From positions 186,001 to 250,000 of the forward strand of contig JAHBVX010000010.1 in NCBI GenBank assembly GCA_019637295.1: a DNA stretch of 64,000 bases. The letters run 5' to 3'. The notes under the pieces were generated by a model, which searched no databases, had not been told where the DNA came from, and was given only the letters and a program-made list of their open reading frames with translations. Source of the stretch: Polyangiaceae bacterium (lineage in GTDB: Bacteria; Myxococcota_A; Polyangia; Polyangiales; Polyangiaceae). Of the stretch, positions 45,087 through 63,077 are shown piece after piece. The position numbers and the translations under genes were made by a program. Position 1 is the stretch's first letter; the number at the start of each line of letters is the position of its first letter.

Positions 45087-45213
45087 GGCATGACTCCGGG
45101 CGGTCCGCGGCCTCTTTTGCGACGCGGGCCGCCGCCGCGTCAATCCGGGGCGCTCGTCGGCCGTCGGCGCTGGTGACAAAAAGCTTGAATTTTCAGCAGT
45201 TGCCCGCTCGCGG

Positions 45214-46116
<903 letters not shown>

Positions 46117-46125
46117 GGGCGGGCC

Positions 46126-47034
46126 TCAGGATTGACCGCCGGCGGTGAGCCGGCGGCGGAGCGAGCTCGAGAGCAAGTTCAGGACCAGGGTCATCAGGAA
46201 CAGACCGAGACCCACCGCGAAGATGGTGCGGTACTCGGTGGTGCCCGTGGGGGTGTCGCCGAGGCTGACCTGCACGATGTACGCGGTCATGGTCGCGATG
46301 GGCACCCGTGGATCGAGGGTCAGCGTGGGCTGCTGGCCGGCGGCGATGGCGACCACCATCGTCTCCCCGATGGCGCGCGAGAAACCGAGGATCACCGACG
46401 CGCCAATACCCGAAACGGCCGCGGGCACCACGACTCGGAACGTCGTCGCCAGGCGACCGGCGCCCAGCGCGTACGCGCCCTCCCGGAGACTCGGTGGCAC
46501 GGCGAACAGCGCGTCCTCGCTGAGCGAGGCGACGATGGGCACGATCATGAGCCCCATCACGATTCCCGGGCTGAGCGCGTTGAAGCCCGCCAGGCCGGGT
46601 ACGACCCGCTGCAAGAGCGGCGTCAGGAACGTGAGCGCGAAGTAGCCGTACACCACGGTGGGAACCCCAGCCAGCACCTCCAGCGCCGGCTTGAGGAGCT
46701 GCCGAGCGCGGGGCGTCGCGAACTCGCTCAGGTAGATCGCCGCGAACAATCCCGTAGGCAGCGCGACCGCCGCGGCGATCGCCGTGGTGAGCAGCGTGCC
46801 CGTCAGCAGCGGCCAGATGCCGTAGTGCTTGTCCGCGAACAGCGGGGTCCACTGGGTGTCGCCCAGGAACTGCCAGGGAGACACCTCGGCGAAGAAGCCC
46901 CAGCTCTGCGAGACGAGCACGAACACGATGCCGGCCGTCACGAAGATGCTGAGCGCGCCACACACCAAGAACGCGCTGCGGGCGACTCGCTCGCTCCAGG
47001 GCTCGCGACCGATGATGGAGACGTCCTTGGACAT
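46126..47034 (-). CDS. pstC: Phosphate ABC transporter permease PstC
   Basis: 302 aa, six helices. Family marks are [86 protein letters not shown]. It forms the phosphate channel with PstA. It follows pstS by 8 bases and is followed by pstA in the same transcript. Confidence 0.97.
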
Positions 47035-47042
47035 CGCGCGCT

Positions 47043-48041
47043 TCAGGAGCCTTCGAGCAGCTTCTCGATGGACACGCCGATTTGCGAGCCCTTGCCGCCG
47101 AACAGCGAACCGGTCACGCGCTTGTGAGCGCGGGCCTTGGCGAGCTCGTAGCCGCGAGAGGGGAGCGGGATGTAGTGCACGTCCTTGACCAGCTCCTCGC
47201 CCCGGGTCATGTAGAAATCCACGAATTTCGCGACGATCGGCTTGTCCAGGGACTTGGTCGAGACGTAGATGAACACCGGGCGGCTCAGGGGCTGATAGGT
47301 CCCGGTGCGGATCGTCTCCATCGTGGGCTCCGTCGGGGCGTCGCCGTTGTCCGCCTTCTCGTCGTCCACGGGGATGGCGCGCAGCTTGCTCTTGCTGTTC
47401 TCGTAGTACGCGAAGCCCAGGAAGCCGAGGGTGTACGGGTCGGCGGCCACGCCCTGCACGATGACGTTGTCGTCCTCGCTCGAGGTGAAGTCACCTCGGC
47501 TCGAGTGCTCCTTGCCCACCACCGCCTCGGTAAAGTAGTCGTAGGTTCCGGAATCTACGCCAGCCCCGAACAGGCGAAGCGGCTTGTCTGGCCAGCCCTC
47601 GCGGACCTCGCTCCACTTGGTGACCTTCCCCTGCGCCTCGGGCTCGAAGATCTTCTTCAGCTCCTTCACCGTGATGTGCTTGGCCCAGTCGTTCTTGGGG
47701 TTCGCGATGATCGTGATGCCGTCGAAGGCGATGGGCAGCTCGACGTACTCGACGCCGTGCTTCTTGCAGAGCTCCACCTCGCTGGGCTTGATCGGCCGAG
47801 AAGCGTCCGAGATGTCCGTCTCGCCCGTGCAGAACTTCTTGAAGCCGCCGCCCGTGCCCGAGATACCGACCGTGACTCTCGCTCCGGCGTTCTCCTTCTG
47901 GAACTCTTCGGCGACCGCCTCGGTGATGGGAAACACCGTGCTCGAGCCGTCGATGCTGATGACCTCGGCGCTCTTCTTGCTGCAGCCGAGCAGCAGGGCG
48001 ACGGCTGCGCAGGCCGCGAGGGCGGAATGCTGGGTAGACAT
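47043..48041 (-). CDS. pstS: Phosphate-binding lipoprotein PstS
   Basis: 332 aa with a lipoprotein signal ([15 protein letters not shown]). It is a type II periplasmic binding protein with phosphate contacts at [11 protein letters not shown] (residues near 30), [22 protein letters not shown] and [14 protein letters not shown]. The Cys in [10 protein letters not shown] and the CKKH are typical of the deltaproteobacterial type. It captures phosphate at the outer face of the membrane and hands it to PstCA. It is first in the pstSCA unit, reading away from a shared promoter region with a Pho box. Confidence 0.97.
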
Positions 48042-50757: not shown

Positions 50758-52560
50758 CTAGCCTCCCGCGTCGAGTCGCATGCGAACGGCGGCCAGGGAG
50801 CGCGCGAGCCCCTTGAGCTGCGCTTCGAAGGCCTCGCGTGGGGCGTCCGGTGCGAGCCACCCCTCCCGCAGCGCGGTCTCGGTGAGCTCTTCCGTCAACA
50901 CCAGCTCACCAGCGCCGGCGGCGCCCTGCAGGCGCGCCGCGATGTTGACGGTCTGACCGAAGTAGTCCAACACGCCGTTGGCGGTTACCACGTAGCACGC
51001 GCCGGCGTGCAGGCCGATCTTGAGCGTCACGCCCGTGGCGTCTTCGCTCCCGCGTCGAAACGCCGGAAACCGAGCGTGCATGGCGGCGGCCGCGCGCACG
51101 GCGTCCGCCTCGCTCGCGAAGGCCGCCATCACGGCGTCGCCGATGGTCTTGACGATCGTACCCGAGAACTCGGCGATCACGGCGCGGAGCAGCTCGAAAT
51201 GATCCTGAACCACGCCAAACGCCTTGGCGTCGCCGATCGCCGTGTACAGCGCCGTCGAGCCGGTCAGGTCCGTGAACAACAAAGCGACTCGCGCGATCCG
51301 CAAGGTCAGTCCCGGCCGGAGCACCTCCCTCGCGAACTGGCTACGAAACGCCGGCAGCATGCTGATGTCGTGGGCGGTGGCGGCGTCCCCTGCGAAATCC
51401 ACCCGCTCGAGCTTCACGTGGCGCTCGCGCGCGTGACTGCTCCGCACCCGCAAGAGCGCGCCTGGCCTCACGTCGGCCTGCGCGGGCTCTAGACCCGCCT
51501 CGCTCGCGACTGAGTCGAGCCCCTCGGCGCCATCGTCGTGCACTCGCAAGATCGCGGCCGGCCCGCCGCGAACGAAGAGCCGGTAGCGACCCGCGCTCAG
51601 GGGCGCCGCGAGCTCCACGGTCTGCTCCGGCGGCAAGATGGCCTGGACCAAGACATGCGGCGTCCGAGCCGGCCCACCGATGCAGTAGGGCCCCTCGTCC
51701 ACGGTACGTAGCGAGTCGGGGGGACGAAACGTGGCCTCCACGGCGCGGTCCAAATCGAGATCGTACGAGATGTCGCACAGCTGGCAGTGCGCGTGCGCTC
51801 CGAGGGCGGAGAGCGCGCGCATGCGCTCGGACGCGGTACGACAGCTCGGGCACACCAGATCCCACATCAGCTCGAGCACGCCGGCGCTCACCCCCTGCAA
51901 GCACGCCTCGAGCACCGCGCGGTCGGGCAGGCCCCAGCTGCGCGCCAGCTCGTAGGGCCGAATGCGATCGACGCGTTGATCGGCGCCCGTGCGGATCAGC
52001 TCGACCAGCTTCTGCGCAGCGACGAGCTCGTCGCCGCTCGTGCTGTCGAACAGTCCCTTGGCGAGCCGGTCGAGCCCCTCGGCGTCGATGCGCGAGTCGT
52101 CGCTGGTCAGGACGCCGCCACCACTGGCTTCTTCGTCCATGCGCTCGACGAAGTTGGCCAGGCGCCCGACGAAGCGAGCGACCTGCAGCCGCACTATGGG
52201 CGCGATCACGCCGAACTTGGGCACCACCGCGACGCGCACGGTCACTCGCGTGCCGTCTCCGCTGGGCTCCAGGATGAAGCGATTGTCCATGGTCCGGAGT
52301 AGTCCCCGGCGCACGATGCGCTTGACGCTGAAGCGCTCGGGCTCGACCCACTCGTAGGGGCGCTCCTCGTACTCGAGCGGAAAGCCGCCGGACACGGTCT
52401 TGACCAGGTAGCGAGCCGCCGAGTCGTCGTCGTTCGGCGACAGCTCGATGCGGCCGAGCCCGATGACGCGATTGACGCGCTCGGTATCCGTGATCAATGG
52501 CCAGAGCGCGCGGGCGCTGGCCTTGCACTCTACGCTGCGCTCGACGGCGATTTCACCCAC
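50758..52560 (-). CDS. Adenylate/guanylate cyclase with SRPBCC and DUF5939-type regions
   Basis: 600 aa. Residues 1-145 form an SRPBCC/START-like domain (VERSVECKASARALWPLITDTERVN, EYEERPYEWVEPERFSV). About 160-400 is a DUF5939-like region with a zinc ribbon (CPSC...CQLC). The class III cyclase domain (about 430-590) has the metal Asp in ALLFTDLTGSTALY and KTIGDAVMAAF, and the conserved DYFGQTVNIAARLQ with the transition-state Asn/Arg. The substrate-selecting position is read best as adenylate. A soluble cyclase whose lipid-type domain may bind a ligand. The gene is alone on its strand. Confidence 0.9.
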   Translation of the reverse strand: MGEIAVERSVECKASARALWPLITDTERVNRVIGLGRIELSPNDDDSAARYLVKTVSGGFPLEYEERPYEWVEPERFSVKRIVRRGLLRTMDNRFILEPSGDGTRVTVRVAVVPKFGVIAPIVRLQVARFVGRLANFVERMDEEASGGGVLTSDDSRIDAEGLDRLAKGLFDSTSGDELVAAQKLVELIRTGADQRVDRIRPYELARSWGLPDRAVLEACLQGVSAGVLELMWDLVCPSCRTASERMRALSALGAHAHCQLCDISYDLDLDRAVEATFRPPDSLRTVDEGPYCIGGPARTPHVLVQAILPPEQTVELAAPLSAGRYRLFVRGGPAAILRVHDDGAEGLDSVASEAGLEPAQADVRPGALLRVRSSHARERHVKLERVDFAGDAATAHDISMLPAFRSQFAREVLRPGLTLRIARVALLFTDLTGSTALYTAIGDAKAFGVVQDHFELLRAVIAEFSGTIVKTIGDAVMAAFASEADAVRAAAAMHARFPAFRRGSEDATGVTLKIGLHAGACYVVTANGVLDYFGQTVNIAARLQGAAGAGELVLTEELTETALREGWLAPDAPREAFEAQLKGLARSLAAVRMRLDAGG

Positions 52561-52594
52561 GCGGGGAGCCTACAGGATCTTCAGCCGCGGTCCG

Positions 52595-53275
52595 CTATGG
52601 AGTTGCCGTGGCGCAGCCCAGATACTCGCCGCCACCGCAGGCGCAGCTGCACGGTGGTTTGCCCGCGCACTCGTAGTCGCAGGGGCAGATGCACGAGTCG
52701 CTGAGCGCCTTGCAGTCCGCTCGATCGAAGCACTGGCAGGCCGAGAGCCCCTCGCAGGGCGGAGGCGCGCACTTGGGTTCGCTCACCGTCCAGGCGCCGT
52801 AGACGCACTGCGCTTCGAGACGCGTCGAGCCGTCCGCGCACTGCTCGTACCCGCAATACTGCTGCCCGGAGCCGCACGCGTCGCTCGAGCCGCAGGCGCT
52901 GCCCGGCTCGGGCACCTCACTGGGGCAGGGAGGGGGGGGCGGCGGGTTGCAGGACGCCGGAGTCGCCATCCACTGCCCGTCGAGGCACTGAGCCATGAAG
53001 TCGGTGCAGCACGGGTTCTGGTTCGGGTACGCACACCACGAGCCGCTCGGCAGCGAGCAGCTCGCCCCATTGCTGGGGAAAGAGCTGGGACAGCCCGCCT
53101 GGGCCGAACCGCCGCTGCCGCTCGAACCCCCCGTCGCGCCAGCGCCCGCGGAGCCGCCGCTCGAGTCCCCGGAGGTGCTACCGCCGCAGGCGGCGATCCC
53201 GCTCAGGGCCACAGTGATCAGAAAGGGTGATCGGAGTCGTCGGTGTTGGGCCAAGAGGTGCCGTCCTAGCGGCAC
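52595..53275 (-). CDS. Cys-rich lipoprotein
   Basis: 226 aa from a GTG at 53275; a TTG a few codons later is possible. The lipobox is IAACGG, followed by a Gly/Ser linker. The mature part has at least 24 Cys in pairs (CSLPSGSWCAY, NPCCTDFMAQC, CQCFDRADCKALSDSCICPCDYEC, PPCSCACGGGEYLGC) with a Pro run near residue 110. It looks like a disulfide-stitched surface protein. It is divergent from the TonB-receptor operon and its start overlaps one of the palindromes in the shared spacer. Confidence 0.75.
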   Translation of the reverse strand: MPLGRHLLAQHRRLRSPFLITVALSGIAACGGSTSGDSSGGSAGAGATGGSSGSGGSAQAGCPSSFPSNGASCSLPSGSWCAYPNQNPCCTDFMAQCLDGQWMATPASCNPPPPPPCPSEVPEPGSACGSSDACGSGQQYCGYEQCADGSTRLEAQCVYGAWTVSEPKCAPPPCEGLSACQCFDRADCKALSDSCICPCDYECAGKPPCSCACGGGEYLGCATATP

Positions 53276-53349: not shown

Positions 53350-53372
53350 GCTAAACGTGCCAACGGCGTAGC

Positions 53373-53390
53373 ACGAGATTACGATTTCGT
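53373..53390. promoter_or_regulatory. Dyad upstream of the TonB-receptor gene
   Basis: ACGA-AT and AT-TCGT arms mirror each other across 18 bases (12 of 18 positions symmetric), 37 bases before the receptor ATG. A Fur/Zur-like or other operator is possible; it does not fit a specific consensus that I know. Confidence 0.45.
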
Positions 53391-53426
53391 AGCACCGACA
53401 CCCGAGGTCTGCTACTCCGCACGGCG

Positions 53427-55856
53427 ATGCGTCCCGACTCGGGCTTTGCCCTGCTGGCAGCGCTGGCCGTGACGCTGGTCGCAGGGCTCGGGCGGGCGCA
53501 CGAGCTCGAGCCGCCCAGGGCGCTCCACCAACCCACCGCCCCCTGGCCTCCCGGTCACGAGTCGCCCCACGACTTGGTGGTGCCCTTGCGGCTCACCGTC
53601 GCCGCCGATGGCAGCGTCGAGGCCGCCATCGTGGAGGTGAGCCTCGGCGAACCCTTCGACTCGATTGCGATTCGGACCGCGCGAACCTGGCGATTCCGTC
53701 CGGCAATAGGTCCCAATGGCGCGGTGCGCGCCATCGTGCGGGCAGTGGTGCGTTTCGTAGGCGAGCCGCGAGAGCCCGGCAAGCCGTTGGTACACCGGCA
53801 CGCTCCTCACGGCGCACCGCATGTCCATCCCCCAGTTGACGCCGCACCGGACCAGCCCCTCGAGGTGCTCGGACACGGCGAGGAGCAGCACCAGCGAACG
53901 GTCCGCGTGGAGGGACAGCGGCGCGCCCGCGCTGCTTCCGAAGTGGAGCGCTCGCGCAAGGTGCTCTCGGCCGCGCCTCACCGCACGGCGAGCGACTTGC
54001 TGAGGACGATCCCCGGAGTCTTCGTCACGCAGCACAGCGGCGAAGGCAAAGCGCATCAGATCTTCTTCCGCGGCTTCGACTCCGTGCACGGTCAAGACTT
54101 GGAGATCTGGGTCGCCGGCGCGCCTGTCAACGACGTGAGCAACGTGCATGGCCAGGGCTACGCAGACTTGCACTTCTTGATGCCCGAAGTGGTCAAGAGC
54201 CTGCGCGCCGAGCCGGGAGCATTCTCCCCGCGCCAGGGAGACTTCGCGGTCGCCGGAACCCTGCGCTTCGAGCTGGGCTTCGACGAGCCCGGCACGACCG
54301 CCTCCGCGACCGCGGGCACCTTCGGCTCTCGCCGTGGTTTTGTGGCGTTTCGGCCCGTGGGGCAGCCTGAAGACAGCTTTGGCGCGGCGGAGGTGTACCG
54401 AACCGACGGCTTCGGCGACGGCCGAGCGGCGGAGCGCGCCTCCGCCGTGGGTCAGGTGGGCACGCCGCTCGGTCGCGACTCGTCCCTGCGCCTGATGGCC
54501 TCCACCTACGCCGGTCGCTTCGGCAGCGCGGGCGTCGTGCGGCAGGATGACCTGGAGAACGGTCGCATCGACCGCTTCGGAAGCTACGACACCAACCAAG
54601 GCGGACACGCCAGCCGAAGTCAGTTCGTGGCGGAGCTGGAGAGCGGTGGCGACGACTGGCAGCTCTCGGTCGCGCCCTACGTCGTGCGTCGTTCGATGGA
54701 GCTTCGTTCGAACTTCACTGGCTACCTGCAAGACAGCGTCAATGGGGACGCCACGTCGCAGCTCAACGACGCGACCACCCTCGGTCTGACGGCGTCGCTG
54801 CGTCGCCGGGTGGAGATCCTGTCGCGCCAGGACAGCGTCGAGGTCGGCGTCTTCGGCCGCAGCGACTTCATCGAGCAGGCCTACCGGCGGGTGAACGTGC
54901 AAGACGGGAGTGTCGTCGCCACGCCGGTGCTGGCCGACATTCGTGCATCTGGCGTGGGTGGCTACTTCGATGCAAGCGTGCACCCCATCGAGCGGGTCGC
55001 CTTGCGCGGCGGCATGCGGGCGGACGGGTTGTCCTTCTCGACTCGGAACCATGAAGCCGTGGGGGGCGAGACGCGCTCGAGCCAGGGTGTCCACCTCGGC
55101 AACAAGCTCACTCTGGATGTCGCCCTGCTCCCGGGCCTGAGCACCCAGGTCAGCTACGGAGAAGGCTTCCGCTCCCCCCAAGCGCGCAGCCTGGCCAACG
55201 GCCAGACCACCCCCTTCACGCAGGTTTCCGCGGTGGAGGCGGGCGTGCGCTACCAGGACGGCAAACGTCTCCGAGCGTCCCTCGCCGCCTTTCGCACGGG
55301 CCTCAGTGAGGACGTCGTGTTCGACGAGACGACGGCGCGCAACGAAGCCGTGCCCTCAACCCTGCGAATCGGCGGCGTGGCGGACCTCGTCGCCGAACCC
55401 GTCACGTGGTTCACCTCCGCGTTGGGTGCGACCTACACCCAAGCTACGTTTCAGCAGGACGGTGGGCCGCGAGCGGAGAAGGGCGCGTTGGTGCCCTTCG
55501 TCCCACAAATGGTCGTGCGCACGGATGTTGCGGTGCGTGGGGAGCTGGCCCACGTGGGCAGGCGCTCACTGCTCGGCAAGGTGGGCGTTGGCACCAGCAC
55601 CCTCTACCGCCGGCCGCTGCCCTTCGGTGAGTTCGGCGACGACGTCCTCTTGGTCGACGCGCAGGCCAGCGTGCGTCTGAGAGAAGTGGAGCTGAAGCTC
55701 GAGTCCTTCAACGTGCTCGGTGCGCAGTGGAACGACGGCGAGTTCGTGTACGCGTCGAACTTCGAGCGGGCCGCCGCGCCGTCGCTCCTACCGGCACGTC
55801 ACTTGACCGCGGGCGCTCCGCGGACGGTGATGATGTCCTTGTGGGTATACCTATGA
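53427..55856 (+). CDS. TonB-dependent receptor with N-terminal TonB-C-like domain and His-rich segment
   Basis: 809 aa. After a signal peptide, residues about 45-115 resemble a TonB C-terminal domain (VVPLRLTVAADGSVEAAIVEVSLGEPFDSIAIRTARTWRFRPA). A His-rich stretch follows (HRHAPHGAPHVHPP), then the receptor plug (RKVLSAAPHRTASDLLRTIPGVFVTQHSG, RGFD, and QGYADLHFLMPEVVKSLRAEPGAFS) and an about 550-residue barrel ending in an aromatic residue and Leu (SLWVYL). It imports a large or scarce ligand, such as a metal chelate, across the outer membrane. A TonB-like domain on the receptor itself is unusual. It overlaps the next gene (ATGA). Confidence 0.9.
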   Translation: MRPDSGFALLAALAVTLVAGLGRAHELEPPRALHQPTAPWPPGHESPHDLVVPLRLTVAADGSVEAAIVEVSLGEPFDSIAIRTARTWRFRPAIGPNGAVRAIVRAVVRFVGEPREPGKPLVHRHAPHGAPHVHPPVDAAPDQPLEVLGHGEEQHQRTVRVEGQRRARAASEVERSRKVLSAAPHRTASDLLRTIPGVFVTQHSGEGKAHQIFFRGFDSVHGQDLEIWVAGAPVNDVSNVHGQGYADLHFLMPEVVKSLRAEPGAFSPRQGDFAVAGTLRFELGFDEPGTTASATAGTFGSRRGFVAFRPVGQPEDSFGAAEVYRTDGFGDGRAAERASAVGQVGTPLGRDSSLRLMASTYAGRFGSAGVVRQDDLENGRIDRFGSYDTNQGGHASRSQFVAELESGGDDWQLSVAPYVVRRSMELRSNFTGYLQDSVNGDATSQLNDATTLGLTASLRRRVEILSRQDSVEVGVFGRSDFIEQAYRRVNVQDGSVVATPVLADIRASGVGGYFDASVHPIERVALRGGMRADGLSFSTRNHEAVGGETRSSQGVHLGNKLTLDVALLPGLSTQVSYGEGFRSPQARSLANGQTTPFTQVSAVEAGVRYQDGKRLRASLAAFRTGLSEDVVFDETTARNEAVPSTLRIGGVADLVAEPVTWFTSALGATYTQATFQQDGGPRAEKGALVPFVPQMVVRTDVAVRGELAHVGRRSLLGKVGVGTSTLYRRPLPFGEFGDDVLLVDAQASVRLREVELKLESFNVLGAQWNDGEFVYASNFERAAAPSLLPARHLTAGAPRTVMMSLWVYL

Positions 55857-56680
55857 AGTCGCATCGAAGGATGACGGAGCGCCGTTTGGGGCCACGGCCC
55901 GTCGCGCTACTCTGCTCACTGGGCTGCTTCCTGGGCAGTCCTGCCCTCTTGACCCTGCCGGGCTGCAGCAGCCAGAGCGACGCCACCAGCGGAAAGCGCG
56001 TGACGCTCGCCACGCAGTTCAGGTCCGTGGATGTCACCGCCGCGGGCTTCACGACGGGCGCGGGCTACGGCGTGGTGCTGACCCAGGCATTGCTGGCGAC
56101 CGGGCCGCTGTACTACTTCCAAGGCGCGCCCATCGAGGCGCGAGGGCCCGCGCTGTCCGTAGTGAGGTCGGCCTTCGCGCACCCGGGTCACTATCAGCCC
56201 GGGGACAACAACGGCGAGATGCTGAGCGAGTGGTCCGTGGACTTGCTCGCCGGTCCTGCGGACTTCCCCGCCGGTCGAGGAGTGACGGGCCAGTATCGCT
56301 CGGCGACCTTCAGCTTCGGTCAAGGGAGCGCAGGCCCGGTCTCCTCCGCCCTCGACGGCCACGTCGTCTTGGTCGAGGGCAGCGCAACCGTCCTCGGTCA
56401 AGAGCGCCCCTTCGTCGCCTTCGCGGATGTCCAAGACCTGCTCGACGCCACCGGCAAGCTGGTCGTCGAGGGCTGCGCCTTCGAGGAAGCCGAGGTGCGC
56501 GCGAGCGGCACGGTCGTCGTCACCGTCAACCTGCCTCTATGGCTCGATCAAATCGACTTCGCCGCGGTGACGCTGGACGCGTCCGGCACGGCGGTGCTCG
56601 AGCGTGGAACCTCCCCACACAAGGCGTTCATTCACGGACTACGCAAGGCGGCGGCCTACCGCTTCAGCTACGAGAACTGA
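55853..56680 (+). CDS. Lipoprotein of the TonB-receptor operon
   Basis: 275 aa; the ATG overlaps the receptor stop. A long basic N-terminus precedes the signal with lipobox LPGCSS. The mature part is beta-rich (TQFRSVDVTAAGFTTGAGYGVVLTQ, SAFAHPGHYQPGDNNGEMLSEWSVDL, ARGVTGQYRSATFSF, GHVVLVEGSATVLGQERPFVAFADV). His-pairs occur at HPGHYQPGD. No family is recognised. Its translational coupling to the receptor makes it the obvious partner, perhaps a ligand-presenting surface lipoprotein. Confidence 0.8.
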   Translation: MKSHRRMTERRLGPRPVALLCSLGCFLGSPALLTLPGCSSQSDATSGKRVTLATQFRSVDVTAAGFTTGAGYGVVLTQALLATGPLYYFQGAPIEARGPALSVVRSAFAHPGHYQPGDNNGEMLSEWSVDLLAGPADFPAGRGVTGQYRSATFSFGQGSAGPVSSALDGHVVLVEGSATVLGQERPFVAFADVQDLLDATGKLVVEGCAFEEAEVRASGTVVVTVNLPLWLDQIDFAAVTLDASGTAVLERGTSPHKAFIHGLRKAAAYRFSYEN

Positions 56681-56699
56681 CTCAGAGAGAGCCAACCCG

Positions 56700-57554
56700 A
56701 TGAACAGCAGATACTCTGGACTCGTTGCCTTGCTCCTGCTGCCTGCTTGCGGCTTCGATGACGATCCGGCCGGCACTACCGGCAAGGCGGACTTGGCTTT
56801 CACCACCTACGGCGAGGAGTTCGTGGAGGACGGCATCCCCGCTGACGAGATCGAGGACGGTTGGGCGGCGAAGTTCGACAAGTTCCTGGTCGTGCTCGGC
56901 GACGTGCGCGTCGCGGACGACAAAGGCAATGAAGGGGCGCGGTTGAGTGCTCTGACGCTGTTCGACATGACCAAGCCCGGCCCCCACGCCGTCGGTACGG
57001 CGGCTGGCATCGGCGCCAAGCACTGGAACCGCGTCGGGTTTCGCATCCCCGCGGCGACTGCCGATACCACGCTTGGCTCCACGGCCACCCAGGCCGACCT
57101 CGACCTGATGAAGCAGGCCGGATACGCCGTATACGTCACGGGCAGCGCCACTCGGGGCAGCGACACGAAGACCTTCGCCTGGGGCTTCACGGAGAGCACT
57201 ACCTATTCGGAATGCACCGCCGACATCGATGGCAAGGAAGAAGAAGGCGTCGTGCTCGCCAATGGAGCCAAGGTCACCGCGGAGCTGACCATCCACGGTG
57301 ATCACTTCTTCTACGACGACCTGTCCGCCGAGACTGCCGTACTGCGATTCGACGCCATCGCGTCTGCAGACACGAATCAGGATGGTGCGGTGACCCTGGA
57401 GGAGCTGGCTGCGGTCAAGCTGTTCGACATTCCCGCGGGCTCGTATCAGACCGGCGCGGCGAACATCGACGACCTGCGTGGGTTCATCAGCGCGCTAGTC
57501 TCCACCCTGGGACACTTCCGGGGTGAGGGTCACTGCACCCCCACCGTGGAGTAA
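56700..57554 (+). CDS. EF-hand lipoprotein of the TonB-receptor operon
   Basis: 284 aa from the ATG at 56700, 19 bases after the previous gene. The lipobox is LLLPACGF. A beta-rich region starts with GEEFVEDGIPADEIEDGWAAKFDKFLVVLGDVRVAD, followed by a canonical EF-hand near residue 225 (D-T-N-Q-D-G-A-V-T-L-E-E, all calcium ligands in place). One HGDHFFYDD segment adds possible metal ligands. It is probably a surface-exposed calcium- or metal-binding partner of the TonB receptor. It is last in the operon. Confidence 0.82.
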   Translation: MNSRYSGLVALLLLPACGFDDDPAGTTGKADLAFTTYGEEFVEDGIPADEIEDGWAAKFDKFLVVLGDVRVADDKGNEGARLSALTLFDMTKPGPHAVGTAAGIGAKHWNRVGFRIPAATADTTLGSTATQADLDLMKQAGYAVYVTGSATRGSDTKTFAWGFTESTTYSECTADIDGKEEEGVVLANGAKVTAELTIHGDHFFYDDLSAETAVLRFDAIASADTNQDGAVTLEELAAVKLFDIPAGSYQTGAANIDDLRGFISALVSTLGHFRGEGHCTPTVE

Positions 57555-57583: not shown

Positions 57584-58255
57584 TCAGGCGAGCACAAGAG
57601 CGAGCTCCGCGCCGGCGTTCTGCTCCACCACGTCGCCGTGAGCCATGATCAAGCGAGCGATGTCCCAAGTGAGGATGCGCGCGACGCTTGCGTCGAACGC
57701 GGCTCGGTCCTTGACCAACATGCCCCACATGCGGCTCTTGGCCAGCTGGCCGTTGGTGCCCATCAGGGACATCACCAGGCGCGTCATCAGACCCTCGGGG
57801 TGGAGCACGTTGAACACCAGGTCACTGGTGATCAGCGTCCCCGACGGCTGGTGAAAGAACACGACCTCGTTCATCTTGGGTGCGCCCTCTACCAAGACCT
57901 GAACGAGCTCGCCGTCGACCCCAGGCAGCGGGTCGCCCGAGAGAAGACCTGGTAGCGGCAGGTCCGGCCGCTTCTGCGCCAGGCCCGACGGCGCGAACAG
58001 CTTCGCGTCCGGGAACTGCGCGAGGGCGTGCCCCACGAACAGGTGGTGGTACAGGTTGGGCGCGATCACTAAGCGCACCGGGCCGATGGCAGCGACCGCC
58101 GCCTGCGTCTCCGGAGCCATCCGGACCGGGGAGTGCAGCAGGACGTCGCCGGACGCGAGGCGGACCACGGTCATCCGCGTGTCGAGGCGCGCGCCGGCGG
58201 GGAGCTTCACGGGCGCGCTGACGTGCCAGATGTCCTGAGCGAGGGGAACGAGCAT
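57584..58255 (-). CDS. DUF4336 protein (metallo-beta-lactamase-like fold)
   Basis: 223 aa from the ATG at 58255, chosen because GGAGG lies 8 bases upstream and the earlier ATG (58276) falls in the promoter -10. The sequence has the DUF4336 pattern DIWHVSAPVKLPAG..LDTRMTVVRL..GDVLLHSPV, VIAPNLYHHLFVGHALAQFPDAKLFAP, VFFHQPSGTLITSDLVFNV and IMAHGDVV. It belongs to the beta-lactamase-like superfamily but lacks the full HxHxDH zinc site, so activity is uncertain. It is divergent from a MarR gene with a shared operator. Confidence 0.85.
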   Translation of the reverse strand: MLVPLAQDIWHVSAPVKLPAGARLDTRMTVVRLASGDVLLHSPVRMAPETQAAVAAIGPVRLVIAPNLYHHLFVGHALAQFPDAKLFAPSGLAQKRPDLPLPGLLSGDPLPGVDGELVQVLVEGAPKMNEVVFFHQPSGTLITSDLVFNVLHPEGLMTRLVMSLMGTNGQLAKSRMWGMLVKDRAAFDASVARILTWDIARLIMAHGDVVEQNAGAELALVLA

Positions 58256-58275
58256 GGGCGAGACCTCCGGAGCCA

Positions 58276-58316
58276 TTGATAAACCAACTTGACTACTTGG
58301 TCAAGTCTGCTTTACT
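58276..58316. promoter_or_regulatory. Divergent promoters with a MarR operator
   Basis: ACTTGAC (58287-58293) and GTCAAGT (58300-58306) form a perfect 20-bp dyad. On the plus strand TTGACT (58289) and TTTACT (58311) are -35 and -10 with 16 bases between them. On the minus strand TTGACC (58304) and TATCAA (58281) give a 17-base spacing. The dyad covers both -35 boxes. Confidence 0.8.
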
Positions 58317-58323
58317 AGCTGTG

Positions 58324-58809
58324 ATGGCCTCCCGCCGAGCCGCCGAGTCCCTGCAGCTCTTGGAGCAGACCAAGCAGGCCTCGACCCTGCAGCTATTATT
58401 CAAGTGCGCCCGCCTGGTGAACGACGTCGCGGTGTCCCGCGGAGCGCGCCGCGGCGCGCGGGTTCAGCTGCGCGCGGCCCACACCTGGCTCCTGCCCCAC
58501 GTGGATCTCGACGGTACTCGCTCCACCGAGCTGGCGCGCCGCGTCGGCATCAGCAAGCAAGCCGTCGGGCAGCTGGTCGACGATCTGGTGCAGCTGCGCG
58601 TGCTCGAGCGGGTCGCGGACCCGAGCGACGGTCGCGCCAAGCTAGTCCGCTTCACGCCCCATGGCCGGCGCCAGATCCACGCCGGACTGGCCCTGCTCGC
58701 GGAGCTCGGAGCGGAGCTCGAGAGCCACGTGGGCGGCAAGCGAATGAGCGCACTGCACGACGCGCTCGCGGCCATCCTGGAGGTGCTGGCGCGGTCCGAC
58801 GTGCGCTGA
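58324..58809 (+). CDS. MarR-family transcriptional regulator
   Basis: 161 aa from the ATG at 58324 (a GTG precedes it directly). A winged helix-turn-helix covers about residues 45-110 (GTRSTELARRVGISKQAVGQLVDDLVQLRVLERVADPSDGRAKLVRFTPHGRR); the wing has the MarR DxR-like DPSDGRAK. Helices on both sides form the dimer interface. It probably binds the dyad between it and the DUF4336 gene and represses both. The predicted transcript start falls next to the ATG, so the message may be leaderless. Confidence 0.9.
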   Translation: MASRRAAESLQLLEQTKQASTLQLLFKCARLVNDVAVSRGARRGARVQLRAAHTWLLPHVDLDGTRSTELARRVGISKQAVGQLVDDLVQLRVLERVADPSDGRAKLVRFTPHGRRQIHAGLALLAELGAELESHVGGKRMSALHDALAAILEVLARSDVR

Positions 58810-58850
58810 CGTCCTTGACGTGCTCCCGTGACGTGAGCGACGCTACCGCG

Positions 58851-59273
58851 ATGGCAACGAAGAAGACGACAAAGAAGGCTCAGAGCACCCCCAAGAAGCG
58901 GGGCGCCAAACGAACCGCTCGCGCTGCGGCGTCCAAGGCGCCCGCGAAGAAGACCAAGAAGAAGACCAAGAAGAAGGCGCGCAGCGCCGCCAAGCGAGTC
59001 GCTACCCGGGCCAAGAAGGTCGCGCGGCGCGTCGAGAAGGCCGCCAAGAAGGCCGTGCGTCGCGTCAAGAAGGTCGTCCGTCGCGTGAAGACGCGCGCCC
59101 GCAAGCTAGCCGCCGAGGCCACCGCGCCGGCACCGCTGCCCACCGAGATCGAGCCGCCGGGTCCTGGTGCCACGGGCAACTCCGGGCGCACGCGCGGAGC
59201 GTCGCGCGCCGGAACGAGCAGGCGCCCTCGGCGCGTCTCCCCGCGCGTCACCGGCGGCGTGAACCTGCGCTGA
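58851..59273 (+). CDS. Histone H1-like basic protein
   Basis: 140 aa from the ATG at 58851. Almost wholly Lys/Arg/Ala with repeated KKAA/RRVKK units (KAPAKKTKKKTKKK, KKVARRVEKAAKKAVRRVKK). This is like histone H1 C-terminal or bacterial HC1/HC2 type nucleoid proteins. A Pro/Gly-rich tail ends the protein. It should bind DNA non-specifically. It is 41 bases after the MarR gene; co-transcription is possible but meaning is unclear. Low complexity makes homology hard to judge. Confidence 0.8.
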   Translation: MATKKTTKKAQSTPKKRGAKRTARAAASKAPAKKTKKKTKKKARSAAKRVATRAKKVARRVEKAAKKAVRRVKKVVRRVKTRARKLAAEATAPAPLPTEIEPPGPGATGNSGRTRGASRAGTSRRPRRVSPRVTGGVNLR

Positions 59274-59290
59274 ACCTGCGCTGAACCTGC
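59260..59290 (+). repeat. 11-bp tandem repeat, about three copies
   Basis: TGAACCTGCGC is repeated at 59260, 59271 and 59282 (last copy one base off). The histone-like gene's stop codon (59271-59273) is inside the second unit. A short slippage-prone repeat. Confidence 0.8.
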
Positions 59291-59323
59291 CATCGGGGCC
59301 CGGTCCCCGCACGAGGCCTGGCC

Positions 59324-59959
59324 ATGACCGACGCCGTCATCTTCTATCACAACCCCATGTCGCGGGGCCGCATCGTGAGCTGGCTGCTGGAAGAGGTGGG
59401 TGCTCGGTACGAGGTTCACCTGCTCCGCTTCGACCGCGCCGAGCACAAGGCCCCGGAGTTCTTGGCGCTGAACCCCATGGGCAAGCTGCCGGCCATCGTT
59501 CACCGCGGCGTCGTGGTCAGCGAGACCCCCGCCATCTGCGCGTATCTCGCGGACGCGTTTCCGGAGGCGGAGCTCGCCCCGCGCCTCGACGATCCACTCC
59601 GGGGCAGTTATCTGCGCTGGCTGTTCTTCGGCGCCGGCTGCCTGGAGTACGCGATCACCGACCGCATGTTCGAGCGCCCCGCGCCCACTCAACCCGGCAC
59701 CCTCGGTTATGGAACGTTCGAGGCGGTGATGAACACGCTGGAGGCTGCCTTGTCCCCCGGCCCGTTCCTGCTCGGGGAGCGCTTCAGCGCCGCGGACGTG
59801 GTGCTCGGTTCTCAGATCGCGTGGGGTGTCTCCGCCGGAGCCGTGCCGCCGCTCCCGACGTTCAAGGCCTGGCAGGCGGCCTACAAGACGCGGCCCGCGT
59901 TCCTGCGGGCGGTGGCCAAGAACCGCGAGCTGATGGCGCAGCTCGGCTCGAGCGGCTAG
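59324..59959 (+). CDS. Glutathione S-transferase
   Basis: 211 aa. The N-terminal thioredoxin-like domain (VIFYHNPMSRGRIVSWLLEEVGARYEV, NPMGKLPAIVH, VSETPAICAYLAD) has the Ser in NPMSRGR as probable glutathione-activating residue and the E-T/S glutathione site. The helical C-terminal domain ends with FLLGERFSAADVVLGSQIAWG. This is a general GST of the bacterial zeta/beta-like type. It conjugates glutathione or a similar thiol to a substrate I cannot name. It stands alone after the histone-like gene. Confidence 0.9.
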   Translation: MTDAVIFYHNPMSRGRIVSWLLEEVGARYEVHLLRFDRAEHKAPEFLALNPMGKLPAIVHRGVVVSETPAICAYLADAFPEAELAPRLDDPLRGSYLRWLFFGAGCLEYAITDRMFERPAPTQPGTLGYGTFEAVMNTLEAALSPGPFLLGERFSAADVVLGSQIAWGVSAGAVPPLPTFKAWQAAYKTRPAFLRAVAKNRELMAQLGSSG

Positions 59960-59974
59960 CTCCCTTACCCGCCG

Positions 59975-61153
59975 TCAGTCGCTACACCACTTGCAGGCGG
60001 CGTCTTGCGAAGTGCCAGCCAGGCACGCGCTGCAGAAGGCATCCTCGCTGCAAGCCGCACCCTGACAGGCGACGGTAGCGGGCGCCTCCGGGCCGCCGAT
60101 GAAGCTCGAGAGCCAGTCCGTGTACTTGGTGCCCGCCGACTCACGGCCATAAAACAGGTCGTAGGGGTGCAGGCAGTGTACGGGCCCCGGTGACAAGTAG
60201 TAGCGGAAGTTGGGCGTGCCGGCGCTGATGTCCGCGAGAGACTGGAGCATCTTGGGCGACCAGTCCGCCTCTGCGCCGCCCATCGCCGTGTAGTAGCCGG
60301 TCTGATCCTTGTCGAAGGCCGTGGTCTGCTGGGCGAAGCGAGCGTTCGGGAAGTCGGCGGCGATCGCCGTGTAGAGCTCCACGATGTCGAGGGTCAGGAT
60401 GTCCTTGCCCGCCAGGCCGGTCACGAACGTGGGTAGCTGCGCGTTCCAGCTCGGGAAGCTCTCCTTGAAGAAGGACTCGCTCACGATGCCGCAGCCCGAG
60501 TCCGCGACGAGCCGGAGCTTCGCGTCCGGGTATTGCTTGGCGATGAACGCGGCGTGACCGATGGCCCCGTAGGCGCCGGCGCTGCAGCCGGTCACCAAGA
60601 TCTCCTCTGGCTGGTAGCGCTCGTACACCCACGCCAGCACCGTCTGTGCGTTGGTGAAGCCGTTGTGCCGGATGGTGACGTCGGCCGAATACTCCACGGT
60701 GGCGTCGCCCCAGTGCACGTCCCCGGTGCAGTACGGAATGTGGATCAGCGTCCACCCTGCCACTGGGTTCGACGCGTCGTCGAGCTGGTAGATGCCCCGG
60801 TACTGCTTGCCCTCGAACCGCGCCTGCAGCTCGGCAGCGCTCGGCGCCTCGGCCGTGAAGATGGCGTCGGCGATCGAGCAGGTGAAGGCGTTCCAGCACG
60901 CACCGCCACCTTGGAAGTCGATCACCAGCTTCTTGGGGTCGCCTCCCGCCGCGGCGAAGCGGAAGGGTGTGCCCCGGGAGCAGATGGTGGGCGCACCGGG
61001 TTCGACAATCTCGAGCGTGCCCGGCGCCGGGATCGCGGGGCCGGCACCGCTGCCCCCGGAGCCACCCGAGCCCTCGGCGTCGTCGCTGCACCCCCCGGTG
61101 ACGAGCGCGGTCAGGAGCACGAGGGTGGTGGCCAGTCGCGAAGGCAGGTGCAT
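59975..61153 (-). CDS. Pectinacetylesterase/Notum-family lipoprotein
   Basis: 392 aa with lipobox VTGGCSD and Gly/Ser linker. It shows KLVIDFQGGGACWNAFTC (oxyanion region with Trp-Asn), IHIPYCTGDVHWGD, VTGCSAGAYGAIGHA with the catalytic Ser, and DSGCGIV. A later His in SPGPVHCLHPYD is the likely triad His. The family removes acetyl groups from pectin or, in Notum, palmitoleate from Wnt. The C-terminus has a Cys-rich end (CQGAACSEDAFCSACLAG...CKWC). It acts outside the cell, substrate unknown. Confidence 0.9.
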   Translation of the reverse strand: MHLPSRLATTLVLLTALVTGGCSDDAEGSGGSGGSGAGPAIPAPGTLEIVEPGAPTICSRGTPFRFAAAGGDPKKLVIDFQGGGACWNAFTCSIADAIFTAEAPSAAELQARFEGKQYRGIYQLDDASNPVAGWTLIHIPYCTGDVHWGDATVEYSADVTIRHNGFTNAQTVLAWVYERYQPEEILVTGCSAGAYGAIGHAAFIAKQYPDAKLRLVADSGCGIVSESFFKESFPSWNAQLPTFVTGLAGKDILTLDIVELYTAIAADFPNARFAQQTTAFDKDQTGYYTAMGGAEADWSPKMLQSLADISAGTPNFRYYLSPGPVHCLHPYDLFYGRESAGTKYTDWLSSFIGGPEAPATVACQGAACSEDAFCSACLAGTSQDAACKWCSD

Positions 61154-61196
61154 GGCCCGAGCTTAGCGCGAACCGGCCCGCGTCGCGCGACGCAAC

Positions 61197-63077
61197 TCAG
61201 GAGGGGGCGCCGCCGGTGAGCGCGCCGCGCACCGCTCGCAGCAGCGACTGCGCGGCGAAGGGCTTGGGTAAGAAGTGCTCGTCCGGGCGTACGTTGGGCG
61301 CCGAGCCGCCATGGGTGGCGACGTAGCCGGAGGTGAACAGCACCCGCAGCTGGGGGCGGCGCTGGCTCAAGGCATCGGCGACCTGCCGGCCGTCCCCGTC
61401 CGGCAGACCCATGTCGGTGACCAGCAGATCGATCTCGCTCAAGGTCGAGTCGGTCACCTCGAGGGCCTCCCGTACGCAGGACGCCTCCAGGATCCGGTAG
61501 CCGTTGCGCTGCAGGATGCGCACCGCTGCCCGGCGCACGACGGCCTCGTCCTCGACCAGCAGCAGCTGCTCGGTGCCCTGCAGCAGAGTCGGCCCCGGAG
61601 GCGGCGTACTCGAGGCGAGCGCCGAGTCCGTCGCCGCGAGCGGGAGTAGGATCGAGAAGCGGGTGCCTTGTCCCGGCGCGCTGTCGACGCGAATACTGCC
61701 TCCGTTCTGCTGTACGATCCCGTACACGGTCGACAGCCCGAGGCCGGTGCCGTGCGCCTTGGTCGTGAAGAAGGGCTCGAACACGTGACTGCGCGTGGCT
61801 TCATCCATGCCACAGCCCGTGTCGGAGACGACGAGCTGCAGGAAGCCCTTGTCGCCGAGCAGTTGGCCCGCGGGACGCGTGGCTACCTCGAGCGTCCCTC
61901 CATCCGGCATCGCGTCTCGGGCGTTGACCACCAGGTTCATGAGCACCTGCTCGAGGTGACCAGGGTCGACCAGCACCTTGCCCGCGTTCCGTGCGAGGTC
62001 GAGGCGTACCGTCACACGCTCGCCGAGCAGCGTGCGGACCAGCGCCAGCGCGGAGCTCACCGCCTCGTTCACGTCCACCGGACGAGCTCGGACGGGCTGC
62101 TGGCGGCTGAAGGTGAGCAGCTGCCGCGTGAGCTTGGCGCAGCGCTCGGTCATGCCGCGGATCTCGCGCAGATCTTCGCGCTGGCGATCCCCCGTGGTCG
62201 GATCCGCCAGCAGCAGATCCGTGAGGCTCATGACCACCGTGAGGTAGCTGTTGAAGTCGTGGGCGATCCCGCCGGCGAGCTGGCCGACGGCCTGGAGCTT
62301 CTCGGTGTTGCGCATGCCGGCCTCGAGCTCGGCGGTGCGCCGTCGGGCGCGATGGGCAGAGATGGCGAAGGCCAACTCGGTGGCCAGCTGCGCCAGGAGG
62401 CGCGCGGCGCGCTCGTCGAAAGCGTTCTGCCGTCGCGAGCAGACGTTCAGCGTCCCGAGCGAGCCCTCGTCCCCCGGCAAGGGGAGGGAGATCACCGAGC
62501 CGAACTCCCGGCCGCGCTCTTCGTCGCGCCCCTGCTCATCGTGGAGGCGCACCCACGCCAGGTCGTAGCCACCCTCGTTCATCGCGATGCGGCACACCTC
62601 GACCAGCAGGTCCTCCTCGGTCTTGGCGTGGATCACCGCGTGGTTCGTCGCGCTGATCAGCCGCAGCTCCTGGTTGGCGCGCTTGAGGTGCTCTTCGGCC
62701 CTGACGCGGTCGGTGACGTCTCGGTCCACGCCGCGATAGCCGAGCAGCTTGCCCTCGGCGTCCAAGACGGGGACCGCCCGGGTCTCGAGCCACAGCAGTC
62801 GGCCGTCGCGGTGACGGTTGAGATTCACGAGGGACCGGAGCGGCATCGGGCGCTCGAGGTGCGGCTGGAACAGCTCTCGGACCCGCTCCGCTTCCTCGCG
62901 CGGCATGAAATCGAAGGGTGTCTTGCCCACCACCTCGCTGGGCGGATAGCCGAGCAGCTCCTGCACGCTCGGGCTCGCGTAGGTGTAGACCCCCGCCTCG
63001 TCGACCTCCCACAGCCAGTCGCTCGTGGTCTCGACTAGCGCACGGAAGTGCTCTTCTTCTGATGGGCGTTCCGCCAT
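61197..63077 (-). CDS. PAS-GAF hybrid histidine kinase
   Basis: 626 aa, no transmembrane helix. PAS with PAC (about 10-130, LVETTSDWLWEVDEAGVYTYASPSVQELLGY), GAF-like (about 145-255), HisKA (LAGGIAHDFNSYLTVV, His as phospho-acceptor), HATPase (VNARDAMPDGG; DTGCGMD; FEPFFTTKAHGTGLGLSTVYGI), and C-terminal receiver (LLVEDEAVVRR; DLLVTDMGLPDGDG with Asp; KPF). It is a cytoplasmic kinase that senses a small ligand or redox state through PAS/GAF and passes phosphate to its own receiver. No HPt partner or response regulator gene is adjacent. Confidence 0.93.
   Translation of the reverse strand: MAERPSEEEHFRALVETTSDWLWEVDEAGVYTYASPSVQELLGYPPSEVVGKTPFDFMPREEAERVRELFQPHLERPMPLRSLVNLNRHRDGRLLWLETRAVPVLDAEGKLLGYRGVDRDVTDRVRAEEHLKRANQELRLISATNHAVIHAKTEEDLLVEVCRIAMNEGGYDLAWVRLHDEQGRDEERGREFGSVISLPLPGDEGSLGTLNVCSRRQNAFDERAARLLAQLATELAFAISAHRARRRTAELEAGMRNTEKLQAVGQLAGGIAHDFNSYLTVVMSLTDLLLADPTTGDRQREDLREIRGMTERCAKLTRQLLTFSRQQPVRARPVDVNEAVSSALALVRTLLGERVTVRLDLARNAGKVLVDPGHLEQVLMNLVVNARDAMPDGGTLEVATRPAGQLLGDKGFLQLVVSDTGCGMDEATRSHVFEPFFTTKAHGTGLGLSTVYGIVQQNGGSIRVDSAPGQGTRFSILLPLAATDSALASSTPPPGPTLLQGTEQLLLVEDEAVVRRAAVRILQRNGYRILEASCVREALEVTDSTLSEIDLLVTDMGLPDGDGRQVADALSQRRPQLRVLFTSGYVATHGGSAPNVRPDEHFLPKPFAAQSLLRAVRGALTGGAPS

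Follow-up and report, generated by a model that had tools for sequence, protein, structure and literature searches.

To our knowledge, the passage of nickel across the outer membrane is experimentally known in few bacteria. TonB-dependent receptors for nickel and cobalt are a described group (Rodionov 2006, Schauer 2007/2008, as cited in an excerpt of PMC2773004). In H. pylori, NikR controls outer-membrane nickel uptake (FrpB4, FecA3) together with the energisers ExbB/ExbD, as stated in an excerpt of PMC7055735. The published delta-proteobacterial NikR signal is GTGTTAC-[N13/14]-GTAACAC plus its reversed form (excerpt of PMC545781). Pairs of MbnP and MbnH (MbnPH) adjoin MbnT-like receptors elsewhere (excerpt of PMC3621798). 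Among the matches listed from open-licence literature, no paper dealt with MbnP and nickel or with a myxobacterial nickel receptor.

Gene layout and conservation

The locus lies in a 64,000-nt stretch of DNA from a Polyangiaceae bacterium (GCA_019637295.1, contig JAHBVX010000010.1, positions 186,001-250,000 of the forward strand), which was analysed as a whole and is called the window here. The host is a soil myxobacterium. A TonB-dependent receptor and two lipoproteins are encoded one after the other (Table 1), and the ATG of lipoprotein 1 and the receptor stop overlap by four bases. In 80 named loci retrieved through lipoprotein 2, the receptor was present in 76 and lipoprotein 1 in 78; all three genes occurred together in 76, and 70 of these complete loci had the order receptor, lipoprotein 1, lipoprotein 2 on a single strand, counts that come from loci which are kin of one another and do not represent independent events. 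The receptor and both lipoproteins are real genes and conserved as a unit. The initial annotation had read the three coupled genes as a possible metal-acquisition system and had suggested following their co-occurrence across genomes, with lipoproteins not conserved along with the receptor as an argument against it; they are conserved with it, and metal acquisition is still the best reading, in agreement with operator, NikR and neighbouring genes. As it had also stated, siderophore, cobalamin and ABC-transporter families gave no match in the seven flanking genes scanned (between 50758-53275 and 57584-63077).

The plug (PF07715, 43.4 bits) and the barrel (PF00593, 58 bits) of the receptor both exceeded the Pfam cut-off. 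The three plug histidines are invariant across 49 aligned receptors, reach 99% across 75 and were present in all ten aligned plasmid relatives. The His-rich stretch was correctly placed before the plug by the initial annotation. The built-in TonB-C domain that it had described is marginal, since its Pfam score of 23.2 bits is under the cut-off (24.6) and its TIGR01352 score of 27.6 bits just over (27.1). Given that Pfam TonB_C was found in 18 of the 49 receptors of the family, the domain is optional and was rejected as a defining trait of the system. The MxcH model for the myxochelin receptor (NCBIfam NF038079) also aligned weakly to the N-terminal part (residues 29-235) with 39.7 bits against an equivalog cut-off of 925, and an identity with MxcH was rejected. 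A sequence search of solved structures gave BtuB plug matches.

Table 1. Positions of genes, domains and operator sites in the window
Feature	Position	Strand	Basis
NikR-type operator GTAGCAC-N14-GTAGCAC, 59 to 32 bases before receptor start	53368..53395 (G000:C2:239368-239395)	.	de novo 7-mer
Second, overlapping operator-like pair GTAGCAC-N13-CTGCTAC, 1 mismatch	53389..53415	.	
TonB-dependent receptor, plug and barrel, predicted nickel importer, 809 aa	53427..55856	+	Pfam/NCBIfam scans, alignments
N-terminal TonB-C-like domain of receptor, residues 52-110, optional in family	53580..53756	+	domain scans
His-rich linker HRHAPHGAPHVHPP, receptor residues 123-136	53793..53834	+	receptor translation
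Plug domain, receptor residues 176-278, with His 203, 221, 241	53952..54260	+	Pfam and alignments
Lipoprotein 1, 275 aa, MbnP fold by model, HPGH residues 110-113 (56180-56191)	55853..56680	+	
Lipoprotein 2, 284 aa, MbnP fold by model	56700..57554	+	
EF-hand loop DTNQDGAVTLEE, lipoprotein 2 residues 224-235	57369..57404	+	translation, Pfam, alignment

Operator, regulator and neighbouring nickel genes

A de novo search of 68 receptor upstream regions ranked GTAGCAC/GTGCTAC first among enriched 7-mers, with 27 regions holding it versus 2.3 expected. Exact half-site pairs at N13/N14 were found in 15 of the 68 receptor upstream regions, compared to 5 of 690 upstream regions of other genes in these loci, and pairs with up to two mismatches in 34 and 16, respectively. 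Motif discovery and the first count used the same 68 regions; more independent support comes from the published signal, the CbiM site in the host genome and the co-occurrence with NikR. The window operator has the N14 spacing and its half-sites GTAGCAC are one base off GTAACAC; they form a direct repeat and many relatives have inverted repeats, and binding is as yet only predicted. Due to the overlap of the two pairs, three half-sites stand in a row. Genome-wide, GTRSYAC-N13/14-GTRSYAC was not enriched in the host: the reversed control had 29 sites and the pattern itself 13, eight of them in one repeat array. Upstream of the receptor, boxes for Fur, Zur and E. coli-type NikR did not rise above shuffled sequence. 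Riboswitch control, including by cobalamin, was rejected as well, as 16 cassette loci yielded one 5S rRNA and the window two tRNAs at gathering score, and no riboswitch.

The host genome contains one NikR (PF08753, 110.2 bits; G000:C23:252875-253099) and a one-mismatch operator 24-51 bases upstream of a CbiM gene, and an exact operator lies before the gene of a NicO nickel transporter in S. cellulosum L131. In 64 genomes, the operator was found in 32 of 35 with NikR (the exceptions being L153, L154 and L160) and in 1 of 29 without; when the 19 leader-bearing Myxococcaceae were left out, the figures were 32/35 versus 1/10. A NikR-like gene stands next to the cassette in seven of 120 loci (L075, L098, L103, L108, L110, L113, L151) and not at the window cassette; the 120 loci combine two sets with some places in both, and the seven are not duplicated. 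Plasmid relatives similar in sequence to the window receptor adjoin nikR, HoxN or hydrogenase genes. Sixteen of 20 plasmid records were examined, 12 of them annotated. Nickel, cobalt or cobalamin genes (nikR, HoxN, HupE) were present in eight of these 12 neighbourhoods, among which nikR occurred in five (two from one species), and four had no nickel or cobalt gene. A urease match was absent from the host genome, and a single frame of the NiFe-hydrogenase family was matched only at both ends.

The 68 receptor regions fall into 34 with operator, 19 with a short leader ORF and 15 with neither. The leader ORF is a Myxococcaceae variant directly before the receptor gene. It has a hydrophobic segment, a His-rich and possibly metal-binding stretch and the invariant C-terminus PQGP, and had no match in Pfam. 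NikR was not found in Myxococcaceae among the genomes compared, and by eye no leader was seen among the ORFs listed upstream of the window receptor.

As operator, regulator and neighbour genes all point to nickel, it is the predicted metal, and the substrate that the initial annotation had called unknown thus has a candidate. The operon is predicted from sequence to serve outer-membrane nickel uptake and to be repressed by nickel-loaded NikR, with a probability of roughly 0.78.

Lipoprotein fold and alternative readings

LPGC38 and LPAC17 in the two lipoproteins are lipobox-like sequences by the lipobox rule. Neither protein reached a Pfam or NCBIfam family at cut-off, so far in line with the initial annotation, which had found no recognised family; a profile comparison between the two gave 98.9%. 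In their models, a relative of the lipoproteins can be recognised, namely MbnP, by fold and not by sequence. MbnP (7l6g_D) was the sole clear PDB fold match for both, with Z 11.1 (rmsd 3.9, 187 residues; next best Z 5.7) for lipoprotein 1 and Z 10.1 (rmsd 4.0, 191 residues; next best Z 6.6) for lipoprotein 2, at TM-scores of only 0.30-0.45. When the profiles were compared with MbnP, lipoprotein 2 reached 54% probability (79 columns) and lipoprotein 1 13% (18 columns), and kinship is thus unproven by sequence alone. Against solved structures, the sequence of lipoprotein 1 found nothing and its profile at best E 0.038 (AfpX13), and lipoprotein 2 found calmodulin-type EF-hands. Neither lipoprotein profile was found in the 16 plasmid loci of the nickel/cobalt receptor group, and lipoprotein 2 had no match on plasmids.

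An HxGH motif occurs in 56 of 56 lipoprotein-1 sequences (HPGH in the window), and both HxDH and HxxGEGxC in all 58 lipoprotein-2 sequences, whose invariant residues include H199, D201, H202, H272, E276, C172 and C279. The EF-hand of lipoprotein 2 has the canonical loop sequence noted earlier, but its Pfam score of 17.9 bits is below the cut-off (25.9); the pattern as searched was present in 41 of 58 aligned sequences. It is conceivable, though rather unlikely, that the metal is nickel and the lipoproteins are non-binding structural partners of the receptor (lid, assembly or docking), with His, Cys and EF-hand residues holding calcium or shaping the fold. A disulphide between the invariant C172 and C279 would be possible, and the EF-hand loop suggests calcium. 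However, the strictly invariant His/Asp/Glu clusters (HxDH, HxxGEG, HPGH) would resemble metal sites, and the fold relative is a metal carrier.

MbnP, the partner of MbnH and known from methane-oxidising bacteria, binds copper, which speaks against nickel. The lipoproteins could be copper carriers that diverged from MbnP, and the receptor an MbnT-like importer of copper or a copper chelate, in accordance with their common fold match and with the MbnPH neighbourhoods mentioned at the outset. Six of 58 lipoprotein-2 sequences, excluding the window protein (P0003), reach Pfam MbnP (E up to 0.1, best 3.3e-4). With own profiles, MbnP-MbnH pairs were found next to the cassette in L171, L199 and the Sorangium loci L118, L119, L120 and L131; in L069/L166, apparently one contig, such a pair adjoins the two lipoproteins, and the receptor is missing. 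The L131 and L171 pairs were checked and exceed the NCBIfam cut-offs. A lipoprotein-1 relative is present in 6 of 15 MbnP-centred loci examined (22 places found), and a peroxidase at the Hymenobacter receptor locus L195 matches the own MbnH profile. Yet nickel genes often adjoin receptor relatives, and the operon has a NikR-type operator before it, as it does in four Sorangium loci with MbnPH. WxW was present in 8/8 MbnPs versus 0/58 and 0/56 for lipoproteins 2 and 1. The first Trp of this motif reportedly becomes kynurenine, as Manesis is said to have described in 2021. NCBIfam MbnP was matched by 0 of 56 lipoprotein-1 relatives. In the host genome, Pfam MbnP found nothing and TIGR04039 found no MbnH at cut-off (best 211.4 versus 362.85 bits). 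Copper acquisition is improbable, and a methanobactin locus was considered and set aside.

As a member of the same group, the receptor might instead import cobalt for cobalamin synthesis, which is very improbable. In favour of cobalt, an overproduced receptor operon of the group (META1_1076/1077) suppressed the growth defect of Methylobacterium extorquens under cobalt limitation (excerpt of PMC2773004), the receptor relative H8 lies near cobalamin genes and an operator-like site stands before a CbiM-type transporter gene in the host. Against it, no riboswitch reached gathering score in the 16 cassette loci or the window, and the regulator that tracks the operator is NikR.

Proposed mechanism and comparison with known systems

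For nickel uptake, the following course is proposed. When nickel is scarce, apo-NikR would come off its site at 53368-53395, and transcription of the operon would follow. The receptor would import Ni(II) or a nickel chelate on TonB-ExbB-ExbD energy, and the three plug histidines and the His-rich linker may help to bind the metal. Both lipoproteins are presumably anchored in the outer membrane, where HPGH in lipoprotein 1 and HxDH and HxxGEGxC in lipoprotein 2 are candidate nickel sites. They may either present nickel to the receptor or receive it from the receptor on the periplasmic side. Transport across the inner membrane would then fall to the CbiM-type ABC system, which is encoded elsewhere in the genome behind a NikR-like site of its own.

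A wider reading is tentative. The MbnP fold, that of a kynurenine-dependent copper carrier, might have been recruited as a nickel-binding outer-membrane lipoprotein pair in a NikR-controlled importer across Myxococcota; some metallo-mystery pairs may serve nickel, and the His-rich PQGP leader of Myxococcaceae might be a metal-sensing arrest peptide that replaces NikR. The second part is suggested because Sorangium MbnPH shares the NikR-operator region with the operon, while L171, with MbnPH and cassette but neither NikR nor operator, speaks against it.

For a large part of a phylum, the system supplies a predicted metal, regulator, operator and three genes, and it gives two lipoprotein families without a name a fold and candidate metal ligands. 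As the MbnP fold, hitherto linked to copper, is tied to a nickel regulon, the metal bound by MbnP-like proteins outside methanotrophs becomes directly testable.

The Myxococcaceae leader resembles the CruR leader (DUF2946) of Bordetella bfrG in its hydrophobic segment, its possibly metal-binding stretch, its invariant C-terminus with Pro and its place just before a metal receptor gene, but CruR has CXXC instead of the His-rich stretch and ends in RAPP instead of PQGP (excerpt of PMC9426467). With MbnP (TIGR04052 / PF20243), the window lipoproteins share the modelled overall fold and TonB receptors in the neighbourhood. They differ as two paralogues side by side with other invariant residues and no WxW, in a genome lacking MbnH at cut-off, and neither family model matches them. 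The H. pylori system has outer-membrane nickel uptake under NikR, as is predicted here, whereas the excerpt of PMC7055735 names no lipoprotein partners. In receptor sequence, NikR-type operator and predicted TonB energy, the system resembles the nickel/cobalt TonB-dependent receptors (as cited in the excerpt of PMC2773004). The window receptor has the plug and barrel of this group and its nickel/cobalt regulatory motif or co-localisation, with transport itself predicted; it differs by its two lipoproteins and maybe by the N-terminal TonB-C-like domain. Thus, a known kind of receptor is combined with a new lipoprotein pair that is predicted to bind nickel.

A conserved receptor and lipoprotein cassette

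The TonB-dependent receptor and the two lipoproteins are encoded by a conserved gene unit. Relatives of lipoprotein 1 were found in 48 and relatives of lipoprotein 2 in 74 of 235 genomes of the phylum searched, and a by-eye comparison of the lists placed a separate lipoprotein 2 on the same contig, within ~3 kb, in 44 of the 48 lipoprotein 1 genomes. Named genomes were searched with a lipoprotein 2 alignment; of 163 confirmed loci the best 80 were kept, with titles of Myxococcota or delta-proteobacteria apart from one Comamonas and one labelled only 'bacterium'. These best 80 contained a receptor relative in 76 cases (absent in L115, L156, L166 and L176) and a lipoprotein 1 relative in 78 (absent in L115 and L156); because these loci were selected by lipoprotein 2, they do not show how frequently the receptor stands alone. 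The 76 complete loci had the order receptor-1-2 on one strand 70 times, 1-2-receptor four times and other layouts twice. Median gaps were 20 and 17 bases over 71 receptor-1-2 loci, with starts picked by rules set here. In 16 plasmid loci from Bacteroidota or Proteobacteria, profiles built here detected no lipoprotein relatives. The locus labelled Comamonas sp. KCTC 72670 (L144, BNCN01000020.1) holds a Myxococcus-like cassette with a leader, a short ORF before the receptor, which suggests a wrong label or a mixed assembly.

The receptor matched plug and barrel above the Pfam cut-offs, and its N-terminal TonB-C-like domain was marginal, scoring 23.2 bits with Pfam (cut-off 24.6) and 27.6 bits with NCBIfam (cut-off 27.1). 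Neither lipoprotein reached the cut-off of any Pfam or NCBIfam family, the EF-hand match of lipoprotein 2 being below it in Pfam.

Coordinates of the cassette, its surroundings and features in related loci
Feature	Position	Strand	Remark
TonB-dependent receptor	window 53427-55856	+	
Lipoprotein 1	window 55853-56680	+	start codon overlaps receptor stop
Lipoprotein 2	window 56700-57554	+	
GTAGCAC-N14-GTAGCAC	window 53368-53395		third half-site overlaps
DUF4336 gene and MarR-family regulator	window 57584-58809		divergent; directly downstream of operon
Guanylate/adenylate cyclase with DUF5939 region	window 50758-52560		weak N-terminal polyketide-cyclase-like match
Putative phosphate-uptake (Pst-like) ABC cluster	window 43356-48041		~5 kb upstream; judged by eye from translations
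Frame below MbnH cut-off	G000:C2:268568-269440		own genome, beyond window; 174.1 bits
FmdE-domain gene	L125:8771-9295		exact NikR-type site between this and the next gene
Protein-kinase gene	L125:9352-10989		
Leader ORF	L139:6223-6636		upstream of receptor
Different His-rich ORF	L179:1662-2153		before receptor

NikR-type operator and receptor group

In the 500 bases upstream of the receptor, the half-site GTAGCAC/GTGCTAC ranked top of all 7-mers (27 of 68 regions versus 2.3 expected). Half-site pairs 13 or 14 bases apart occurred in 15 of 68 receptor regions versus 5 of 690 other regions of the same loci, these five matches being three sites, two of them counted twice, once per gene of a divergent pair. 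Allowing for two mismatches at most raised the counts to 34 of 68 and 16 of 690 regions. Of the three control sites, one, in L131, lies in front of a NicO nickel transporter, and another, in L125, is a possible further NikR target. For delta-proteobacterial NikR, a passage of PMC545781 gives the signal GTGTTAC-[N13/14]-GTAACAC, plus its reversed form. GTRSYAC-N13/14-GTRSYAC occurs at 13 places in the own genome, eight of which are one repeat array, and its reversed control at 29; of the four remaining sites other than that of the window, one is 24-51 bases upstream of a CbiM gene that has an ABC ATPase gene after it.

The nickel sensor NikR (PF08753) was searched in 64 cassette-locus genomes, in batches of 14 and 50, leaving out L168, L179 and L180. 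The operator was present in 32 of 35 genomes with NikR (exceptions L153, L154 and L160) and in one of 29 without it (L167). Without the 19 leader-bearing Myxococcaceae, the comparison was 32 of 35 versus one of 10 (Fisher p 2e-6, related genomes treated as independent). The 68 receptor regions comprised 34 with the operator, 19 with the leader and 15 with neither. Both a single NikR and the operator are present in the own genome. A NikR-like gene adjoins the cassette in seven of 120 loci, and Pfam confirmed that of L113 (97.3 bits).

Twenty records of the plasmid collection contained a receptor relative at E up to 1e-20, with 26-48% identity over part of the receptor. An alignment of ten of these relatives with six Myxococcota receptors and that of the window shows a shared plug motif of the form QH...GK..Q.F.RG....HG.D, ten residues, N.....H..G[YW].D. 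Its three histidines are present in all 17, invariant in 49 Myxococcota receptors and conserved to 99% in 75. Sixteen of the 20 plasmid records were examined for neighbours, four without annotation and 12 annotated. Eight of the 12 carry nickel, cobalt or cobalamin genes, namely nikR (H1, H7, H15, H17 and H19; H15 and H19 are one species), HoxN (H4, H7), HupE (H1, H2) and cobalamin genes (H8); none were found in the annotated records H6, H9, H14 and H20. A nickel/cobalt receptor group of such kind is described in a section of PMC2773004, which cites Rodionov 2006 for it, and HupE/UreJ and NiCoT are counted as nickel or cobalt transporters in a section of PMC2667541.

The best reading of the cassette, for which computation gave a conserved gene unit, an operator co-occurring with its regulator, a receptor group and a fold, is nickel. 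Nickel would be the transported metal, would be bound by the lipoproteins, which would be anchored at one face of the outer membrane, and would be passed on to an ABC system of the CbiM type. A single NiFe-hydrogenase-family frame, matched at its two ends only, occurs in the own genome, where urease gave no match.

Lipoprotein fold and copper as the main rival

Profile comparison shows lipoproteins 1 and 2 to be distant paralogues (hhalign 98.9%). Their AlphaFold2 models were confident (mean pLDDT 85.9 and 93.3, respectively), and the sole clear PDB match of each was the copper-binding protein MbnP of Methylosinus trichosporium (7l6g). Foldseek gave best E-values of 6.7e-4 for lipoprotein 1 and 1.4e-4 for lipoprotein 2 (probability 1.0), with low TM-scores of 0.30-0.45. 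VIA-align gave Z 11.1 for lipoprotein 1 (187 residues, 3.9 A; next entry 5.7) and Z 10.1 for lipoprotein 2 (191 residues, 4.0 A; next entry 6.6). Pfam MbnP was matched by six of 58 lipoprotein 2 sequences at E up to 0.1 (best 3.3e-4; that of the window, P0003, not among them) and DUF4382 by two of the 58, while none of 56 lipoprotein 1 sequences matched MbnP in NCBIfam. The MbnP hallmark WxW, present in 8/8 MbnPs, is absent from all 58 lipoprotein 2 and 56 lipoprotein 1 sequences. Lipoprotein 2 has 16 invariant columns, including C172, H199, D201, H202, H272, E276 and C279, and lipoprotein 1 has invariant H110, G112, H113 and G117; these residues are predicted metal sites.

Copper instead of nickel is the main rival. 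MbnP and its partner MbnH adjoin the cassette in four Sorangium loci, L171 and L199 according to profiles built here, which also place the pair beside the two lipoproteins without a receptor in L069/L166, apparently one contig. In L198 the pair accompanies a receptor plus a lipoprotein 1 relative. NCBIfam confirmed the pair in both loci checked, L131 and L171, and a peroxidase in a Hymenobacter plasmid locus matched our MbnH profile. Of 22 MbnP places, 15 were examined as MbnP-centred loci, and six of these had a lipoprotein 1 relative. In Sorangium L118, L119, L120 and L131, the MbnP gene diverges from that of the receptor with a NikR-type site in between, so that the pair may belong to a nickel regulon; L171 has neither NikR nor operator. 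Given this pattern, and as the own genome has no MbnP or MbnH above cut-off, the pair is an occasional companion of the cassette, and nickel is preferred to copper.

Leader ORFs before the receptor

The leader, of ~130-140 residues from its conserved start, occurs in L139 and likewise in L127, L128, L129, L133-L138, L140, L141, L144, L146-L149, L161 and L172. It combines a single hydrophobic segment with a His-rich middle and the C-terminus AMPQGP-stop (EQPQGP in L147), whose residues are kept while the codons wobble. A search of eight Myxococcaceae genomes, scoring 150 first-look candidates in most of them, found it at one place in each, before the receptor; the receptor of Archangium L168 is also preceded by a weak match. 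Three examples had no Pfam match. The leader was present in 19 of 29 tested genomes without NikR versus none of 35 with it. It recalls the CruR copper leader, and the His-rich ORF of L179 ends in RARAPPA, close to the CruR arrest motif RAPP.
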